Below, in pieces: positions 15,366-62,325 of a stretch of DNA of 64,000 nt (positions are counted from its first letter, which is position 1; each line of letters starts with the position of its first letter). The notes under the pieces are model-generated. The model was not told the origin of the DNA. It was given only the letters and a program-made list of their open reading frames with translations, and did no database searches. Both the position numbers and the translations under genes were made by a program. Source of the DNA: Thermoclostridium caenicola (GTDB taxonomy: Bacteria > Bacillota > Clostridia > DSM-8532); the NCBI RefSeq assembly GCF_900142095.1, contig NZ_FQZP01000001.1, positions 62,001 through 126,000 on the forward strand. Reading direction: 5' to 3'.

Positions 15366-17765
15366 ATGCCTGAAAAGAAAAAAAGGTATACGTTCGGAAT
15401 CCTTATCGACTGGATAACCAGTTGGAGTGATAGCCATTACTACCAGTCCCTGCTCCTTTCGGGGCTGTCTGATTTCGCAAAGGCAAACGACATCAATGTG
15501 ATCTGCTTTGTCACAGGAAGGGTGGATTCCCCCTATGAATGGGACAGATGCCGGAATATCCTGCTGAAATTCATCGATAAGAACAAGGTTGACGGCCTGA
15601 TTGTACCCACCACCGCCATCGGTGTGTACAGCAGCGCCCGTTCCATCGTGAAGCTTCTTGAAGGCTACGGCGACCTGCCCATCGTTACGGTGGGCGAGCG
15701 GTTTGAAAATTACCCGTCGGTCACCATCGATAATTATTCAGGTATGCGCCAGGTGGTGGATCACCTCATCGAATCGCACGGTTACAGGCGGATAGCGTTC
15801 ATTAAAGGGCCGCCGTGCAAGGAAGCCTATATCCGTTTCCAGGCTTATCTGGATTCCCTGGCGGCCCATCAGATCGAATATGATCCCACCCTCGTCTATA
15901 ACGGGGATTTCCGCTTTGAGTCCGGTTCCGAAGCGGTTAGGACATTTTTGCGCGAAAACATCCGGTTTGACGCCCTTGTCAGCTCCAACGACAACATGGC
16001 GATGGGCGCCCTCATCGAGTTCAACAAAAGCAACAAGAACCTCATATTCACACTGCCCATAGCCGGTTTTGACGACTCTGAAAACGGGCGGATCTATGGT
16101 CTGACAACCGTGCGCCAGAATTTTCATGAGCAGACTTACCGGGCTGCGGAAATTCTCCTGAACATCATTAAAGGGCGTGATACGCCGTACCACGTGGAAA
16201 TACCGTCCAGGATGATCCTCCGATCCTCCTGCGGCTGCGTTCCTACGGTGGTCAAAAAAGCCTATATCAATCCTGAGACCATAGAGAACAGAGGCGAAGA
16301 TGAAGTTTCCATAGAACAGATCATGGCCGAACTGGAAGAGCTGAACCACACCCTGGATATCAGCGACAGTTCATTGCTTCTGAAGGGTCTGTTGAGCCAG
16401 GAACGGCAGGTGGTGGACGCCTTCTTCGACGAATTCCGCAATGGCACCAGGGACAGGTTTGTCATGGCCATCAACAGTCTCATCCTGTGGTGTTCCGACA
16501 ACAAGATCGATTGGCTGTTCATACAGGATATCCTGCCCGCCATCCGCAAAAGCGTGATGAACTGGCTGACCACCAGGGAAGAAGTGATACGGGCCGAAAA
16601 CCTGCTGCATGCCGCCATGATCTTCCTCTTTGATACCCTCCAGATGGCGGAGGCCAACCGCTCCGTAACCAACCCGCTCCTGGGCGAAAACACAGAACGA
16701 CTAGGAGAAGCCCTCATGGCCAGCCTCGATTACGAGAGCCAGCTTAAAACGGTCTGTCAGTTGTTGCCGCAGCTTGACATACACACCTGTTATATCGCCC
16801 TGTTTGAGGATGAGGCGAATCCGCTGGACAAGTCGCGCCTGATCCTGGCCATGACAAAAAAAGGCGTTTTCAAGCAAGGAGGACAGGGTATCGTGTTCAA
16901 CACCCTGGATCTTCTCCCCGAAGCTTTTATGGAAGATCTGCATAAGGACAGGTTCAGCCTCGTGGTACAGGTTCTCCACCAGGGAGACAACAAGATGGGT
17001 TACGTCATACTGGACTTTGACTCCACCATCAACAAAAACTATGAGATCGTCCGCTACAGGCTTAGCGTTTCCTTAAAGGGCACCATGCTCATAGAAAGGA
17101 TTTCCAGGCAGGCAGCGGATCTGGAAATCCAGGTGAAGGAAAGAACCAAGGAGCTTTCTGAAAGCAACAAGCATCTCAAGGAAGAGATCGCCAAGCGAAA
17201 AGATGTGGAAAAACAGCTGAAACAAGCCCTGAGGGATCTGCGTTATTACAACGAGCAGCTTCACCGCCAGTCCATCCGCGACGAACTGACCCAGTTGTAC
17301 AACCGGCGCGGCTTTATGCAGCTTGGCAATGAATTTTATGAAAACGCGAAGAAAAACAATATGAGCTTCCTCCTGCTCTATGCCGATCTGGACTGCCTCA
17401 AGCGGATCAACGACAAGTTCGGACACGACGAAGGGGATTATGCCATCGTCAGCACCGCCCAGATTCTCAATAGAACCTTCCGCAATACGGATATCATCAG
17501 CCGCCTGGGCGGGGACGAATTTACAGTGATCATTTCAGGCGCTTCCGAGAAGGACGAGGCGGATATCAGGAACCGGATCCAGCGCTACTGCGATCTCCAT
17601 AACGAACTGTCAAAAAAGCCTTACAAACTGTCCATCAGCCTCGGATTCGCCCATTATGCGCCCGGCAGTTCCGCCGCTTTCGAGGACCTGATGAAGGCTG
17701 CCGACAAGGCCCTGTACGCCGACAAGCAGAGAAAATCCGCCGGGTGCCACAAGCAACAGGGATAA
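15366..17765 (+). CDS. Periplasmic-binding-fold sensor fused to GGDEF domain
   Basis: The 799-aa protein opens with a LacI-type sugar-binding fold (residues about 8-300: FGILIDWITSW, VDGLIVPTTAIG, SSNDNMAMGALIEF, SCGCVPTVV) but lacks the usual DNA-binding helix-turn-helix and any signal peptide, so the sensor seems cytoplasmic. A middle region of about 270 residues resembles a GAF-like spacer, followed by a coiled coil (about 585-640) and a C-terminal GGDEF domain with RDELTQLYNRRGF and RLGGDEFTVII near residue 711. Active-site residues look intact, so it probably makes c-di-GMP in response to a small ligand. A GGGGGAT site precedes the ATG. Confidence 0.88.
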   Translation: MPEKKKRYTFGILIDWITSWSDSHYYQSLLLSGLSDFAKANDINVICFVTGRVDSPYEWDRCRNILLKFIDKNKVDGLIVPTTAIGVYSSARSIVKLLEGYGDLPIVTVGERFENYPSVTIDNYSGMRQVVDHLIESHGYRRIAFIKGPPCKEAYIRFQAYLDSLAAHQIEYDPTLVYNGDFRFESGSEAVRTFLRENIRFDALVSSNDNMAMGALIEFNKSNKNLIFTLPIAGFDDSENGRIYGLTTVRQNFHEQTYRAAEILLNIIKGRDTPYHVEIPSRMILRSSCGCVPTVVKKAYINPETIENRGEDEVSIEQIMAELEELNHTLDISDSSLLLKGLLSQERQVVDAFFDEFRNGTRDRFVMAINSLILWCSDNKIDWLFIQDILPAIRKSVMNWLTTREEVIRAENLLHAAMIFLFDTLQMAEANRSVTNPLLGENTERLGEALMASLDYESQLKTVCQLLPQLDIHTCYIALFEDEANPLDKSRLILAMTKKGVFKQGGQGIVFNTLDLLPEAFMEDLHKDRFSLVVQVLHQGDNKMGYVILDFDSTINKNYEIVRYRLSVSLKGTMLIERISRQAADLEIQVKERTKELSESNKHLKEEIAKRKDVEKQLKQALRDLRYYNEQLHRQSIRDELTQLYNRRGFMQLGNEFYENAKKNNMSFLLLYADLDCLKRINDKFGHDEGDYAIVSTAQILNRTFRNTDIISRLGGDEFTVIISGASEKDEADIRNRIQRYCDLHNELSKKPYKLSISLGFAHYAPGSSAAFEDLMKAADKALYADKQRKSAGCHKQQG

Positions 17766-30311: not shown

Positions 30312-30517
30312 GTCTGCGTTTTTTCTCTTCACTTCCTTCATCATCATGCAGAAATTCTCGGTCCGTTATTGTGATTACCACCCGGAAACCAGCGCATAAT
30401 ATGTTAACAGTGGATGATATTGAGATAACCGGTGCATGATACAGGCAGACGGATGATGCTGCCGTCCCCGTCCTCCAGGGGGGCGCATCAGCATGAATCC
30501 ATAAGGTGGTGACAGGC

Positions 30518-31897
30518 ATGAAGGAAAACGGGAAGACTAAGTCAGCACGCGACACCTTTACGGGAAGCTTTGGATATGTTATGGCCACAGCCGCTTCCGC
30601 CGTCGGTTTGGGAAACATCTGGCGGTTTCCTTACCTGGCGGCCAAATACGGCGGGGGCATTTTCCTGATTATTTACCTGGTATTGGTCGTAACCTTCGGT
30701 CATGCCATGCTCATGTCGGAAACAGCGCTGGGGCGCATGACAAGAAAAAGTGCGGTAGGCGCCTTCCAGAGCTTTGGAAGCAACCTCCCGCTGCGATTCG
30801 GAGGCTGGATCAACGCCATTGTTCCCATGCTCATCGCGCCTTACTACTGTTTTATCGGAGGATGGATCGTCAAATACTTGTATGAGTATTTGGCGGGGAA
30901 CACTGCCAGCCTTGCGGAAAACAACTACTTCACCAGTTTCATAACGACATTCTCCAGCACGGAAATATGCTTCATCGTGTTTACCGCTCTGACCTTCCTC
31001 ATCGTGCTGATGGGGGTTGGTAACGGTGTGGAAAAGGCCTCAAAAATCTTGATGCCGCTCCTGGTCCTGTTAGCCATTGTCATAGCGGTTTATTCCATGA
31101 CCCGGCCGGGCGCCATGGAGGGAGTACGCTATTTCTTCATCCCCAATTTCAGAAAGCTGTCTTTGATGACGCTTGTGGCAGCCATGGGACAGATGTTCTT
31201 CTCCCTGTCCATTGCCATGGGTATTTTGTACACATACGGTTCCTATCTGAAAAAGGACGGGGACATCGTAAAAACCAGCAGGTTGGTGGAGACATTTGAC
31301 TCAGGCGTTTCCATCCTGGCCGGACTGATGATCATTCCCGCCATATTCGCTTTTCTGGGTGGCAGCGAGGAAAATATCCGGTCCGGTCCCTCCCTGATGT
31401 TCATCACGATTCCCAAGATCCTTGAAAGCATGGGGCTTGGTCAAATTCCGGGCATCATATTCTTTTTCATGGTACTGTTTGCCGCCCTTACCAGTTCCAT
31501 TTCGCTGATGGAAAGCGGCGTGTCCACTTTCATGGATCAGGCAGGATGGTCAAGGAGCAGAAGCTGTGTTGTGATGGGCATTATCATGCTTCTTTTGGGA
31601 ACCGCATGCGCCCTGGGATATGACGCCTGGAGCTCGGTACAGCCGTTGGGCATGTCCATTCTGGATTTCTTCGATTTTCTGACAAACTCCATCATGATGC
31701 CTCTTGCTGCATTATTCACCTGTGTTTTGATCATCAAATATGCGGGCATCAGGTCTGTCGTGGAGGAAATCCGTATATCTTCCCCGTTTAAAGGTGAAAA
31801 GACCTATATTGTCACCATAAAGTATCTGGCGCCCATCATCCTGATCATCATATTAATCAGCTCGGTCGCCGCTACGTTCGGCTGGCTCAAGATATAA
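30518..31897 (+). CDS. Neurotransmitter:sodium symporter (SNF/NSS family), copy 1
   Basis: The 459-aa protein has 11-12 hydrophobic helices and the NSS hallmark in helix 1, AVGLGNIWRFPYLAAKYGGG, where the unwound segment binds Na+ and substrate. The second conserved region is the YTYGSYLKKDG turn. Bacterial members such as LeuT-type MhsT and TnaT import amino acids with sodium. The ATG at 30518 follows AAGGTGGTG; an in-frame GTG at 30506 is less likely. A paralogue of equal length lies 600 bases downstream in the same direction. Confidence 0.95.
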   Translation: MKENGKTKSARDTFTGSFGYVMATAASAVGLGNIWRFPYLAAKYGGGIFLIIYLVLVVTFGHAMLMSETALGRMTRKSAVGAFQSFGSNLPLRFGGWINAIVPMLIAPYYCFIGGWIVKYLYEYLAGNTASLAENNYFTSFITTFSSTEICFIVFTALTFLIVLMGVGNGVEKASKILMPLLVLLAIVIAVYSMTRPGAMEGVRYFFIPNFRKLSLMTLVAAMGQMFFSLSIAMGILYTYGSYLKKDGDIVKTSRLVETFDSGVSILAGLMIIPAIFAFLGGSEENIRSGPSLMFITIPKILESMGLGQIPGIIFFFMVLFAALTSSISLMESGVSTFMDQAGWSRSRSCVVMGIIMLLLGTACALGYDAWSSVQPLGMSILDFFDFLTNSIMMPLAALFTCVLIIKYAGIRSVVEEIRISSPFKGEKTYIVTIKYLAPIILIIILISSVAATFGWLKI

Positions 31898-32021: not shown

Positions 32022-32396
32022 CTAGCTCCCTAGCGGAAGCATGATCTTCAGGGCAAACACCCCCTGGCTGGCGCTGAAGACTGCCTGTCCGCCGTGGGCA
32101 TCGGCAATTGCCGCGATACTGCGTGTTCCGTACCCATGCCCCTCATGGGAGGCTTGGGGAAGGCCGTTTGTTATGACAACTTCACCTTCGTATGCGTTTT
32201 CCATCAAAATCAACAGGTTGTTCTTATGTATCATGGCCTTGACAGATACCGTCCTGCGCTCCGCCCCGGAGCAGGCGGAAGCGGCGGAAACAGCGTTTTC
32301 AAGCAGGCAAATTGATGCAGGCAGTTTGTTTTCCCACATTTTTCCGATGCGCCAAAACAGCCCGGAATATGTAATGGAAGCTTCATGTGCAAACGC
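32022..32396 (-). pseudogene. GHKL histidine kinase C-terminal remnant
   Basis: The frame on the minus strand starts after a stop near 32397 and resembles only the ATP-binding end of AgrC/CitA-type GHKL kinases: ICLLENAVSAASAC (N box), LILMENAYEGEV, then GHGYGTRSIAAIADAHGGQAVF (G box). It is comparable with the C-terminus of the kinase at 51444-53380. The membrane and dimerisation parts are absent. An ATG at 32339 would permit a 105-aa product, but there is no reason to think it is functional. It lies, reversed, between two symporter paralogues. Confidence 0.75.
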
Positions 32397-32497
32397 GAGT
32401 TATGATACAATGGTATATCGTCATTGACCGTATAAGCCGTTTTATCCGGTCATTCAGCCCGGGTTCAAGCAAAAGCCTTTTGAAGGATGTGGTAACA

Positions 32498-33876
32498 TTG
32501 ACGGAAAAAACAGGGACAAAAGATTCACGCAGCAGCTTTACAGGAAGTTTTGGCTATGTGATGGCCACAGCCGCTTCTGCCGTCGGTCTGGGAAACATCT
32601 GGCGATTTCCCTATCTGGCCGCCAGGTATGGCGGGGGCATTTTTCTGATTGTTTACCTTGTTCTGGTTGTAACCTTCGGTCATGCCATGCTCATGTCTGA
32701 AACAGCACTGGGAAGAATGACAAGGAAAAGCCCTGTAGGAGCGTTCCAGAGCTTCGGAAACAGTCTTCCGCTGCGATTTGGAGGATGGATCAACGCCATT
32801 ATTCCCATGCTCATCGTACCCTATTACGCCTTTATCGGAGGATGGATCATCAAATACCTTTATGAATACTTTGCCGGCAATACAGTCGCTCTTGCAGGGG
32901 ACAATTACTTTACTGATTTTATTACTTCCTTTTCCAGTGCAGAAATATGCTTTATCATATTTACGGTTTTGACCTTCCTCGTCGTATTGTTGGGGGTCGG
33001 AAATGGTGTTGAAAAGGCCTCCAAGGTTTTGATGCCCATCCTGATCCTGCTGGCGATTGTGATAGTGGTTTACACCATTGCCCAGCCCGGCGCTCTGGAA
33101 GGGGTACGCTATTTTCTCATCCCCAATTTCAGGAAGTTCTCATGGATGACCCTGGTGGCCGCCATGGGACAAATGTTCTATTCCCTGTCCATCGCTATGG
33201 GTGTTCTATATACATACGGCTCCTATCTCAAAAAAGACGGGGATATCGAGAAAACCAGCAGGCTGGTGGAAGGATTTGATACAGGTGTTTCCATGCTGGC
33301 CGGGCTTATGATCATTCCGGCCGTCTTCGCTTTTTCCGGCGGCAGTGAAGACAGCATCCAATCCGGTCCGTTCCTCATGTTTGTCACGATCCCAAAGGTG
33401 TTTGAGAACATGGGGCTTGTGGATATTCCGGGCATCGTGTTCTTCCTGATGGTGCTGTTTGCGGCGCTCACCAGTTCCATCTCCATGATGGAAAGCGGTG
33501 TTTCAACCTTTATGGACCAGACAGGATGGTCAAGAGGCAAATGCAGTGTGCTGATGGGCATGATTATGCTCTTGCTTGGCACTGCCTGCGCACTGGGATA
33601 TAGCGTCTGGAGTTCCGTCCAGCCATTGGGTATGTCCATCCTGGATCTCTTCGATTTTCTCACCAACTCCATCCTAATGCCCATTGCTGCCCTGAGTACC
33701 TGTTTATTGATCATAAAAAAGGCGGGCATCAGGACCGTTGTGGAGGAAATACGTTCATCATCCCGATTCAGGAGCCAAAGGACATATACCTTTTTATACG
33801 GTACCTATCCCCCATCATACTGCTTGTGATCCTGCTTAGCTCTATCGCCGCAGCCATGGGGCTCCTGCGGATATAA
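32498..33876 (+). pseudogene. NSS-family symporter, copy 2, broken by one missing base near its 3' end
   Basis: The protein is closely similar to the symporter ending at 31897 throughout, including AVGLGNIWRFPYLAARYGGG. The start is taken as TTG at 32498 because it aligns with the ATG of copy 1 and GAAGGATG lies upstream. At the T-run 33791-33795 the frame slips; reading continues to a stop at 33829 with 17 unrelated residues, while the next frame gives IRYLSPIILLVILLSSIAAAMG, aligned to the last helix of copy 1. With one base added the gene is 1380 bases, exactly the length of copy 1. The last helix is lost unless this is a sequencing error or a slippage site. Confidence 0.85.
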
Positions 33877-34562: not shown

Positions 34563-35024
34563 ATGATGGATAAGCTTTACAAAGCCTTTGTCGACGCGAC
34601 AAGCCATGTCTTTCAACTGATGCTCAACATACCGGAGATTTCCGCCCATCCGGAAAAAACATTAAAATGTGACGAGGCAGTTGATATCGCCATCGGTATT
34701 GTGGGTGACCTCCAGGGCGAAGTGGTTTACCGCTTCCCTGTCGCCACATCTCTGAATATGGTTAAAATCATGAGCGGCATGGAGTTTGATGCGGTAGATG
34801 TTTTCGTGACTTCTGCCATATCGGAGGTAGCGAATATCATCAGCGGCAATGTGCTTACCGCCCTTTCGGGTGGGGATTTGCGGTGCGATATCTTGCCTCC
34901 GGTACAGCAAAAGCCCGATGAGGGCAAAGCTTATGAGATAGAATCAAGCTGCTGCATCTGTACGGCAATCGGCGAGATATGCCTGGAAATCCGGCTGAAT
35001 CGGGCTTCTCACATGCTTCACTGA
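34563..35024 (+). CDS. CheX-like chemotaxis phosphatase
   Basis: The 153-aa protein matches the CheC/CheX/FliY phosphatase fold. The single active-site motif ExxN is visible in SAISEVANIISGN near residue 84. The first half carries the CheX-type IVGDLQGEVVYRFP and NMVKIMSGMEF strands. Such proteins dephosphorylate CheY-P and related receivers. It lies six bases after the hemerythrin gene with a GTGAG site and is presumably co-transcribed. No other chemotaxis genes are nearby except the deleted receptor at 29676. Confidence 0.85.
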   Translation: MMDKLYKAFVDATSHVFQLMLNIPEISAHPEKTLKCDEAVDIAIGIVGDLQGEVVYRFPVATSLNMVKIMSGMEFDAVDVFVTSAISEVANIISGNVLTALSGGDLRCDILPPVQQKPDEGKAYEIESSCCICTAIGEICLEIRLNRASHMLH

Positions 35025-35065
35025 CGATTGACAAGAAGTCCGGTTATTGATAAGATAGCATTGAT

Positions 35066-35163
35066 TCTAAAAGGGAGTAGCTGTTAACGATAAGATCAAC
35101 ACGCTGGAGAAATCCTGGTCTTATCTGCTTTAACCTCTTGTTAAAGTAAGCGAGACTTTTAGA
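35066..35163 (+). promoter_or_regulatory. yybP-ykoY (Mn2+) riboswitch aptamer
   Basis: The two conserved ends of the yybP-ykoY class are visible: GGGAGTAGC at 35073-35081 and GCGAGAC at 35150-35156, closed by a P1 stem TCTAAAAG (35066-35073) with CTTTTAGA (35156-35163). The P1 3' strand is also the 5' strand of the following terminator, so metal binding should prevent termination. The class binds Mn2+ and commonly precedes UPF0016/Gdt1 exporters, exactly the gene found downstream. Confidence 0.88.
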
Positions 35164-35200
35164 TTATCAGAGTATGCCTGATAATCTAAAAGTCTTTTTT
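35154..35200 (+). terminator. Expression-platform terminator of the Mn2+ riboswitch
   Basis: A perfect 17-bp stem (35154-35170 with 35178-35194), a 7-base loop and six T residues. Its 5' arm overlaps the riboswitch P1 strand, giving two mutually exclusive folds. It lies 80 bases before the exporter gene. Confidence 0.92.
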
Positions 35201-35276: not shown

Positions 35277-37127
35277 ATGATTCAGGAAATGATCAGGGCA
35301 TTTTTACTGATTTTTGTCGCGGAGATGGGAGACAAGACCCAAATTTTGGCCATGGCCTTTGCCACGCGTTTCCCAGTGGGAAAAGTCCTGTTGGGAATAG
35401 GCCTGGGAGCATTCCTGAACCATGGCCTGGCAGTCCTTCTGGGCAGTTACCTGTCCCAGCTGGTTCCCATTAACACCATCCAGATGATTGCTGGAGCCGC
35501 GTTTGTTGGGTTTGCCCTTTGGACACTGAAGCCTGAGCCGGAGGAAGACGAAGAAAAGGAAACACGTTTCCAGTTCGGGCCGACAGCCACAGTAGCCCTG
35601 GCTTTCTTCATTGGAGAGCTCGGCGATAAGACCCAGTTGACGGCCATCACCCTGGCCGCCGATGCCGGATATCCCCTGATGATCCTCGCAGGAACCGTTT
35701 CAGGCATGATAGCCACAGGGGCTTTGGGCATCATCATCGGCAAAAAGCTTGGGGACAAGATTCCGGAACTGGGCATCAAATTCCTGGCTGCCTCCATCTT
35801 TATGTTCTTCGGTCTGCAGAAGCTGTATCAGACAGTTCCCGCCCAATACTTAAGCCCTGCCTACGCGGCTCCCTTCCTCTGCATACTGGCCGCCATAGTC
35901 GCCTGGATGGTCTTCCTGCTCGTCCGCAGAAGGCGTGATGGCCTCCGGTCCGATTTTGCAGCCAAAGCAAAAATGCTGCATGACTATTACCTGCACCTGA
36001 AAGACGACCTGGATCAGATTTGCCTGGGTTCGGAGTACTGCTGCTCGTGCGAGGGAGACCAATGTGCTGTCGGCATGTCAAAAGCAATACTCCAGGCCGC
36101 ACTGGCTGAGCAGGACAGCCGGGAAGAGTCCCGGAACGACGGGCCAACCCATTGGGACAAGCCTTTCACGAAAGAGGCGGTATTGGATTCCCTGGTAGAT
36201 ACCTTATGGCTTATCAGCACCATCCGGGATGAAGACCGCCTGACCTCCGCCCACCGCATCCGCAATCAACTGGAAACCATCCTCCTGGGCCGGGCAATTG
36301 AGGAATTCGGAGACCTGGCTTCGTACATCGAATCGGTAAAGGAACGCGACGCCGGGCTGGCCAGGAAGATCGGCGGCATGCTCCGCATGAGAAAACCTTT
36401 TGAAGAACGGTTGCTGAATGTGGGCAACCGGATCAGCAACATCTACCTGGTTGAACTGCAGGAAGGCTATCTGCTGATCGATACCGGTTACCCGGAGCAA
36501 TTTGAGCGGTTTGAAAAAGCGCTGAGAAAGAAAAACATTGCGCTGGATGACATCAAGTACATTTTCATAACCCATGCCCATGACGACCATGTCGGTTTCC
36601 TGAACCGGCTGCTGGAAAGAACCCATGCGAAGGTCATCCTCCATCCCGAAACCATCGGGCGGATGGAGGCAGGACAAAACGCCTTCAGGGGCGGTTGCAG
36701 CAGCAGGCTGGCATGGTTCTTCTGCCAGCTGATGAAGCTCTTTGGCAAGGGAGATCACCGCTTCGAGCCGGTGGAGGCCTCTGACCGCTACATTCCGGTA
36801 ACGGGGAACACGCAGCAGGAAATAGAAAAAATGCTTTCGGCAAGGATTGTTTTCCTCCCGGGCCATACGGCCGATTCCATTGGCCTTCTGTTCGACAGCA
36901 AAGCGCTGTTCTGCGGCGATGCGGCCATGAACGGCTTCCCAAGCCGAAACCATGTAATCATCTGGATAGAGGATTTGGATGCCTACAAGGCCTCATGGGA
37001 AAAGATGACGGAAATGAATTTTCAGAAGGTATACCCCTCCCATGGAAAGCCTTTTGCGAAAGAGGAACTAGTCAGGCATACCGAAAGGCTTGAGAAAATC
37101 CGCCTCTACCCCTTAAGACATGCATAA
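35277..37127 (+). CDS. Gdt1/UPF0016 cation exporter fused to Cys-rich middle region and metallo-beta-lactamase-fold domain
   Basis: Residues 1-215 of the 616-aa protein are a complete UPF0016 (TMEM165/Gdt1, MneA-type Mn2+/Ca2+ exporter) with both ExGDK(T) motifs (VAEMGDKTQ near 14, IGELGDKTQ near 112) and six to seven helices. Residues about 225-375 are a soluble, helical region with a cysteine cluster (Cys255, 256, 258, 263). Residues 382-616 form a metallo-beta-lactamase fold with HAHDDH (433-438), GHTADS, GDAA and a late SHGKP, so both metal sites look complete. Usual family members are about 200 aa. The upstream Mn2+ riboswitch supports Mn2+ export; the hydrolase's role is unknown. Confidence 0.88.
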   Translation: MIQEMIRAFLLIFVAEMGDKTQILAMAFATRFPVGKVLLGIGLGAFLNHGLAVLLGSYLSQLVPINTIQMIAGAAFVGFALWTLKPEPEEDEEKETRFQFGPTATVALAFFIGELGDKTQLTAITLAADAGYPLMILAGTVSGMIATGALGIIIGKKLGDKIPELGIKFLAASIFMFFGLQKLYQTVPAQYLSPAYAAPFLCILAAIVAWMVFLLVRRRRDGLRSDFAAKAKMLHDYYLHLKDDLDQICLGSEYCCSCEGDQCAVGMSKAILQAALAEQDSREESRNDGPTHWDKPFTKEAVLDSLVDTLWLISTIRDEDRLTSAHRIRNQLETILLGRAIEEFGDLASYIESVKERDAGLARKIGGMLRMRKPFEERLLNVGNRISNIYLVELQEGYLLIDTGYPEQFERFEKALRKKNIALDDIKYIFITHAHDDHVGFLNRLLERTHAKVILHPETIGRMEAGQNAFRGGCSSRLAWFFCQLMKLFGKGDHRFEPVEASDRYIPVTGNTQQEIEKMLSARIVFLPGHTADSIGLLFDSKALFCGDAAMNGFPSRNHVIIWIEDLDAYKASWEKMTEMNFQKVYPSHGKPFAKEELVRHTERLEKIRLYPLRHA

Positions 37128-54811: not shown

Positions 54812-54855
54812 GCAAGGCACCCTGCATTTACTTATGCAGGGTGCCTTGCTTTATT
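54812..54855. terminator. Strong bidirectional terminator
   Basis: A perfect 16-bp stem (54812-54827 with 54834-54849), loop TTACTT and TTTATT tail end the plus-strand operon. It also lies just past the stop of the minus-strand gene at 54862. Confidence 0.9.
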
Positions 54856-62284: not shown

Positions 62285-62325
62285 AACCCGGAGGGCGGCG
62301 CATTTTCTGCGCCGCCCTCCGGGTT
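62285..62325 (-). terminator. Terminator of the 2-hydroxyacid dehydrogenase gene
   Basis: A perfect 18-bp GC-rich stem (62285-62302 with 62308-62325) has a TTTTAT tail on the minus strand, 19 bases past the dehydrogenase stop. It may also stop plus-strand transcripts of the XRE gene. Confidence 0.85.

Follow-up and report, generated by a model that had tools for sequence, protein, structure and literature searches.

A predicted Mn2+-responsive ON switch of the yybP-ykoY class, missed at the Rfam cut-off, precedes a GDT1-family fusion gene

Riboswitch control is the rule for bacterial UPF0016 genes, 328 of 333 of which were found under a yybP-ykoY riboswitch in a previous screen (PMC7380456). 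In this RNA class, the N7 of an adenosine contacts Mn2+ (A48 in Xanthomonas oryzae, A41 in Lactococcus lactis; PMC6754395), and U49 of the X. oryzae L3 sequence, ACAUACU, makes a U-turn (PMC6754395). In both species, Mn2+ stabilises P1.1, blocks invasion by the terminator and favours read-through (PMC6754395, PMC11087558), and this P1.1/terminator mechanism is itself already established.

Here, we analysed a leader at positions 35063–35200 of a 64-kb stretch of DNA (the window), which we consider, with high confidence, a transcriptional Mn2+ riboswitch of the yybP-ykoY class acting as a genetic ON switch. Class membership, structure, a strand shared between aptamer and terminator, a conserved promoter and the family of the downstream gene were established in the present analysis. 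Both the riboswitch class and the antitermination mechanism are known, and what is new is one more member. Its significance is modest and lies in confirming a regulatory RNA that would escape Rfam annotation, and in linking Mn2+ control to a predicted exporter in an unusual fusion with two extra domains.

Orthologs of the downstream gene were gathered, and they share this leader. The segment 35066–35163 is a Mn2+ (yybP-ykoY, RF00080) aptamer with P1, L1, P3/L3 and P4, and without P2; all features described in the following lie on the forward strand. The 8-bp P1 (P1.1) joins a 5′ strand at 35066–35073 (TCTAAAAG/UCUAAAAG) to a 3′ strand at 35156–35163 (CTTTTAGA/CUUUUAGA), the latter representing the switching sequence. 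L1 (GGGAGUAG/GAGA) is composed of GGAGUA (35074–35079), invariant in 43 of 43 aligned members, and GAGA (35152–35155), whose AGA is likewise invariant (43/43). Next to it, the P1.2 strands GCU (35080–35082) and AGC (35149–35151) are paired in 100% of alignment cells. A 6-nt linker, GUUAAC (35083–35088), replaces the P2 hairpin. Alignment and covariation define P3 (35089–35125; GAUAAGA at 35089–35095 with UCUUAUC at 35119–35125), which encloses the 5′ side of L3 (UCAACACGCU, 35096–35105) and its 3′ side (UGG, 35116–35118), both placed by alignment, as well as P3.1 (GGA-GAAA-UCC, 35106–35115), a hairpin within the P3 element. P4 (CUUUAAC-CUCUU-GUUAAAG, 35128–35146) is supported by pairing and covariation.

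The conserved ends of the class that an earlier note on this DNA had pointed out are indeed there, i.e. GGGAGTAGC from 35073, GGGAGUAGC inside P1 and GCGAGAC at 35150–35156. With respect to the four-way junction P1-P2-P3-P4, P1, P3 and P4 are present and covary, while P2 is reduced to the linker, as in many other members; it is also absent from L038–L040, and most other close orthologs carry a GNRA-capped P2. Among the 12 close leaders, pairing reached 97.8% of cells and both-side changes occurred in seven pairs, vs. 1.3 in shuffles. Across the 43 members, 96.9% of cells were paired and 29 of 31 pairs showed both-side changes (244 such cells vs. 61 in shuffles); as the 43-sequence alignment was fitted to the model, these covariation counts lean towards it, and sliding the partner by one column cuts pairing to about half. 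For P1, seven of the eight pairs have both-side changes among the 43 sequences, including a compensatory A-U to U-A exchange in L036.

A covariance model built from the 12 leaders, window included (R1), recovered the E. coli mntP riboswitch (44.5 bits, E = 3.6e-11), did not detect E. coli alx in L058, and found further members whose 3′ genes encode GDT1, MntP, P-type ATPases and other transporter-like proteins. To avoid circularity, neither the window nor its close orthologs entered a second model (R2), for which R1 had supplied 23 distant Mn aptamers, E. coli mntP among them. R2 matched 35066–35164 with 79.8 bits (E = 1.3e-20), with the second-best match in the window scoring 10.8 bits; as its alignment was fitted to the R1 structure, the model retains some dependence on the window, although its letters do not. 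These reciprocal matches, the covariation and an invariant metal-site adenosine (see below) bear out the class call of the earlier note. With R2, a second Mn2+ riboswitch was seen in the window's own genome (L001/L089, G000:C37:2867–2985, minus strand; E = 3.0e-10), where it precedes a gene for a cation P-type ATPase.

The high-scoring Rfam match that the earlier note had named as supporting evidence was absent, which at face value is the refutation that the note had set. Searching the 64-kb window with RF00080 (Rfam 15, gathering cut-off) returned no Mn2+ riboswitch, nor did RF00080 match a 401-base segment spanning the site when E was allowed to reach 10; the only Rfam matches, at gathering or at E up to 10, were chance microRNA-like hits to the long hairpin. 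We attribute this to the sensitivity of the model. The best RF00080 score among 61 related genomes, 33.5 bits (E = 1.7e-7), belonged to the leader of an orthologous gene (L048, same site as L037), and the E. coli mntP riboswitch itself reaches only 41.6 bits, below the 45-bit gathering cut-off, so the Rfam miss is a sensitivity gap and not a refutation of class membership. The window copy's score is lowered further by the absence of P2 and two changes in L3. Given that E. coli mntP falls short and that none of the 61 related genomes passes, the gathering cut-off is an unsound test here: applied at that threshold, the Rfam Mn2+ model misses an entire group of members in clostridia, whereas 69 of the 391 genomes of the taxonomic class searched with R1 contained members.

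At the metal site, A35101 aligns with the Mn2+-contacting A48 of X. oryzae and A41 of L. lactis, and is kept in 43/43 sequences; all invariant positions of the L1/L3 core in this alignment are intact in the window copy. Its L3, ACACGCU, carries a C at position 49, the sole C among the 43 sequences. This uniqueness, together with the lacking Rfam match, might suggest a drifted copy, in which C49 and the missing P2 make Mn2+ binding weaker or alter metal preference, leaving a mostly constitutive terminator or a response to another metal. We deem such drift very improbable, as the Mn2+-contacting adenosine and the invariant L1/L3 positions are preserved, position 49 varies elsewhere too (G in three sequences, A in one), the L. 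lactis loop is itself unlike that of X. oryzae, members without P2 are common, and all helices, promoter and terminator are maintained in front of an intact gene.

The leader ends in an intrinsic terminator (35152–35200), consisting of a 5′ arm (35152–35170), a loop (35171–35177), a 3′ arm (35178–35196) and a U-tract (35195–35200). Of the 19 bp in its stem, 18 are Watson-Crick and the closing one is G-U; a 7-nt loop caps the stem, and TTTTTT follows it. The terminator 5′ arm contains the entire P1 3′ strand (8/8 nt), and this overlap is conserved in orthologs. The strand sharing claimed by the earlier note therefore stands, whereas its stem length of 17 bp needs correction. Only one other hairpin with 18 perfect pairs exists in the window (62285–62325). 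This long intergenic hairpin and another at 54812–54849 (16 perfect pairs, then TTTATT) are probably ordinary terminators.

A promoter, TTGACA (35028–35033) and TAAGAT (35051–35056) separated by a 17-nt spacer, ends 9 nt before P1 (35028–35056 in total). The pattern TTGACA-17-TAxxxT recurs in 11 of 12 ortholog leaders, located 9–10 nt ahead of P1 in ten of those. This conserved element separates the hairpin from the upstream CheX-like gene (34563–35024), whose stop codon precedes the terminator by 128 nt, a spacing at which the hairpin might be nothing but that gene's terminator, its riboswitch likeness being incidental. Given the intervening promoter, the retention of the entire leader ahead of the downstream gene's orthologs and the match of the independent covariance model (E = 1.3e-20), we assign this explanation a negligible probability and regard it as refuted by the conserved aptamer.

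The leader folds far more stably than shuffled sequences (–48.3 vs. –26.5 ± 3.3 kcal/mol; z = –6.6). Plain energy folding always yielded the terminator state, and the aptamer P1 did not appear; for a full-length RNA free of ligand, this is the expected outcome. For growing transcripts, a simple energy model gave P1 a probability of >0.95 up to a transcript end of ~35184, 0.13 at 35188 and none by 35192, P1 dominating the ensemble until transcript end 35186. Without ligand, the terminator state (–37.6 kcal/mol) is more stable than the read-through state (–25.7 kcal/mol) by ~12 kcal/mol, so the default would be OFF and read-through would have to be kinetic and ligand-assisted.

From the position of the promoter, transcription would start just 5′ of P1. 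When Mn2+ is scarce, the growing terminator hairpin would capture the P1 3′ strand: the upper seven terminator pairs could form while P1 is still intact and go on to invade it; displacement of P1 would lead to termination at the U-tract. At high Mn2+, L1 and L3 would dock around the metal and stabilise P1, such that the lower terminator pairs are prevented from forming and transcription continues into the gene for the GDT1-family exporter, whose expression would lower cytosolic Mn2+. For this to happen, Mn2+ would have to hold P1 until polymerase has passed. By analogy with the characterised relatives, Mn2+ very likely switches the downstream fusion gene on by blocking termination, as the earlier note had proposed; ligand, switch direction and export function are all transferred to this leader from published members and may be read accordingly as predictions. 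We found no support for a Mn2+ aptamer of opposite sign (an OFF switch) or for chiefly translational control, although some class members, e.g. E. coli mntP, do act on translation (PMC11647493). P1 and the terminator are in direct competition, so that any ligand stabilising P1 must prevent termination, and the switch does not include the start codon, which is 77 nt past the U-tract; both points render this third alternative highly improbable and favour the transcriptional ON switch.

The regulated gene (35277–37127, forward strand) encodes a 616-aa protein with two GDT1/UPF0016 repeats, a Cys4 domain and a metallo-beta-lactamase (MBL) fold. The two repeats at the protein start (Pfam GDT1, E = 1e-38) agree with the UPF0016 exporter family anticipated by the earlier note, and the E-x-G-D-K-T motif occurs twice (EMGDKT and ELGDKT), invariant in 17 orthologs. 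The protein is thus a member of the GDT1/UPF0016 family, a Mn2+ exporter family, and by comparison with its relatives would export Mn2+. The cytosolic Cys4 domain (about aa 220–375, about 150 aa) contains the invariant cysteines C249, C255, C258 and C263, and the C-terminal MBL fold spans about aa 383–589. Among the 17 orthologs compared, the Cys4 domain was present in all and the MBL domain in five; in one ortholog (L035:1–1839), HVHEGH replaces HxHxDH as the MBL metal motif, and the hydrolase domain there may be inactive. A literature search for GDT1 fused to a metallo-beta-lactamase returned nothing relevant, and a plasmid search with the GDT1 part retrieved distant homologs only. It is conceivable, if rather unlikely, that the C49-bearing aptamer without P2 is a variant of shifted metal affinity and that the fusion couples export with hydrolase induction; if true, Mn2+ would induce the exporter and a metal-dependent MBL-fold hydrolase together, in one polypeptide with the Cys4 domain.

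Many genomes of the phylum also encode the Cys4 domain (window 35934–36401) as a standalone protein of ~150 aa, and some versions have a second cysteine cluster. Neither in the fusion nor standalone did it match Pfam or NCBIfam, and a PDB search with its AlphaFold model (pLDDT 75.6) gave nothing significant (best E = 1.0). One standalone copy (L105) adjoins a gene that is rubrerythrin-like by sequence.

Related loci showed further arrangements. In L075 (G138:C199, minus strand), two near-identical Mn2+ aptamers (16058–16169 and 16468–16579) are separated by ~300 nt, each accompanied by a diverged hairpin of its own that resembles a terminator, and both are upstream of a single GDT1+Cys4 gene (G138:C199:14747–15862). 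Tandem Mn2+ riboswitches were described as surprisingly lacking in a 2022 review (PMC9481103); as copy 2 has its own TATAAT-like element, the two copies may not act in one transcript. At L064 (G355:C21:4930–5265), what directly follows the aptamer is the end of the Cys4 domain (query aa 297–375), with the terminator and the membrane part missing and no intact copy found in the same genome, suggestive of a deletion or an assembly fault. Within the window itself, two closely similar, nearly adjacent membrane-transporter reading frames (30506–31897 and 32387–33829) look like a recent duplication.

Compared with described systems, the window element shares the L1 and L3 core with E. coli mntP, which R1 recovered at E = 3.6e-11, but E. 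coli mntP acts mainly on translation, with Rho (PMC11647493), and no intrinsic terminator sharing P1 was found for it. The L. lactis yybP-ykoY riboswitch (yoaB) is transcriptional like the window element, the 3′ segment of its P1.1 being common to the terminator and Mn2+ leading to read-through (PMC11087558); the two differ in L3 (UCA41AUUC vs. ACACGCU), in the absence of P2 from the window copy and in their downstream genes. The X. oryzae riboswitch controls an MntP-type exporter gene (yebN), and again P2 is what the window copy lacks. Its L3, ACAUACU (PMC6754395), is identical in many orthologs of the window element and differs from the window L3 at two positions (C49 and G50), with A48 kept, and strand invasion of P1.1 is the same in X. 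oryzae and in the mechanism proposed for the window.
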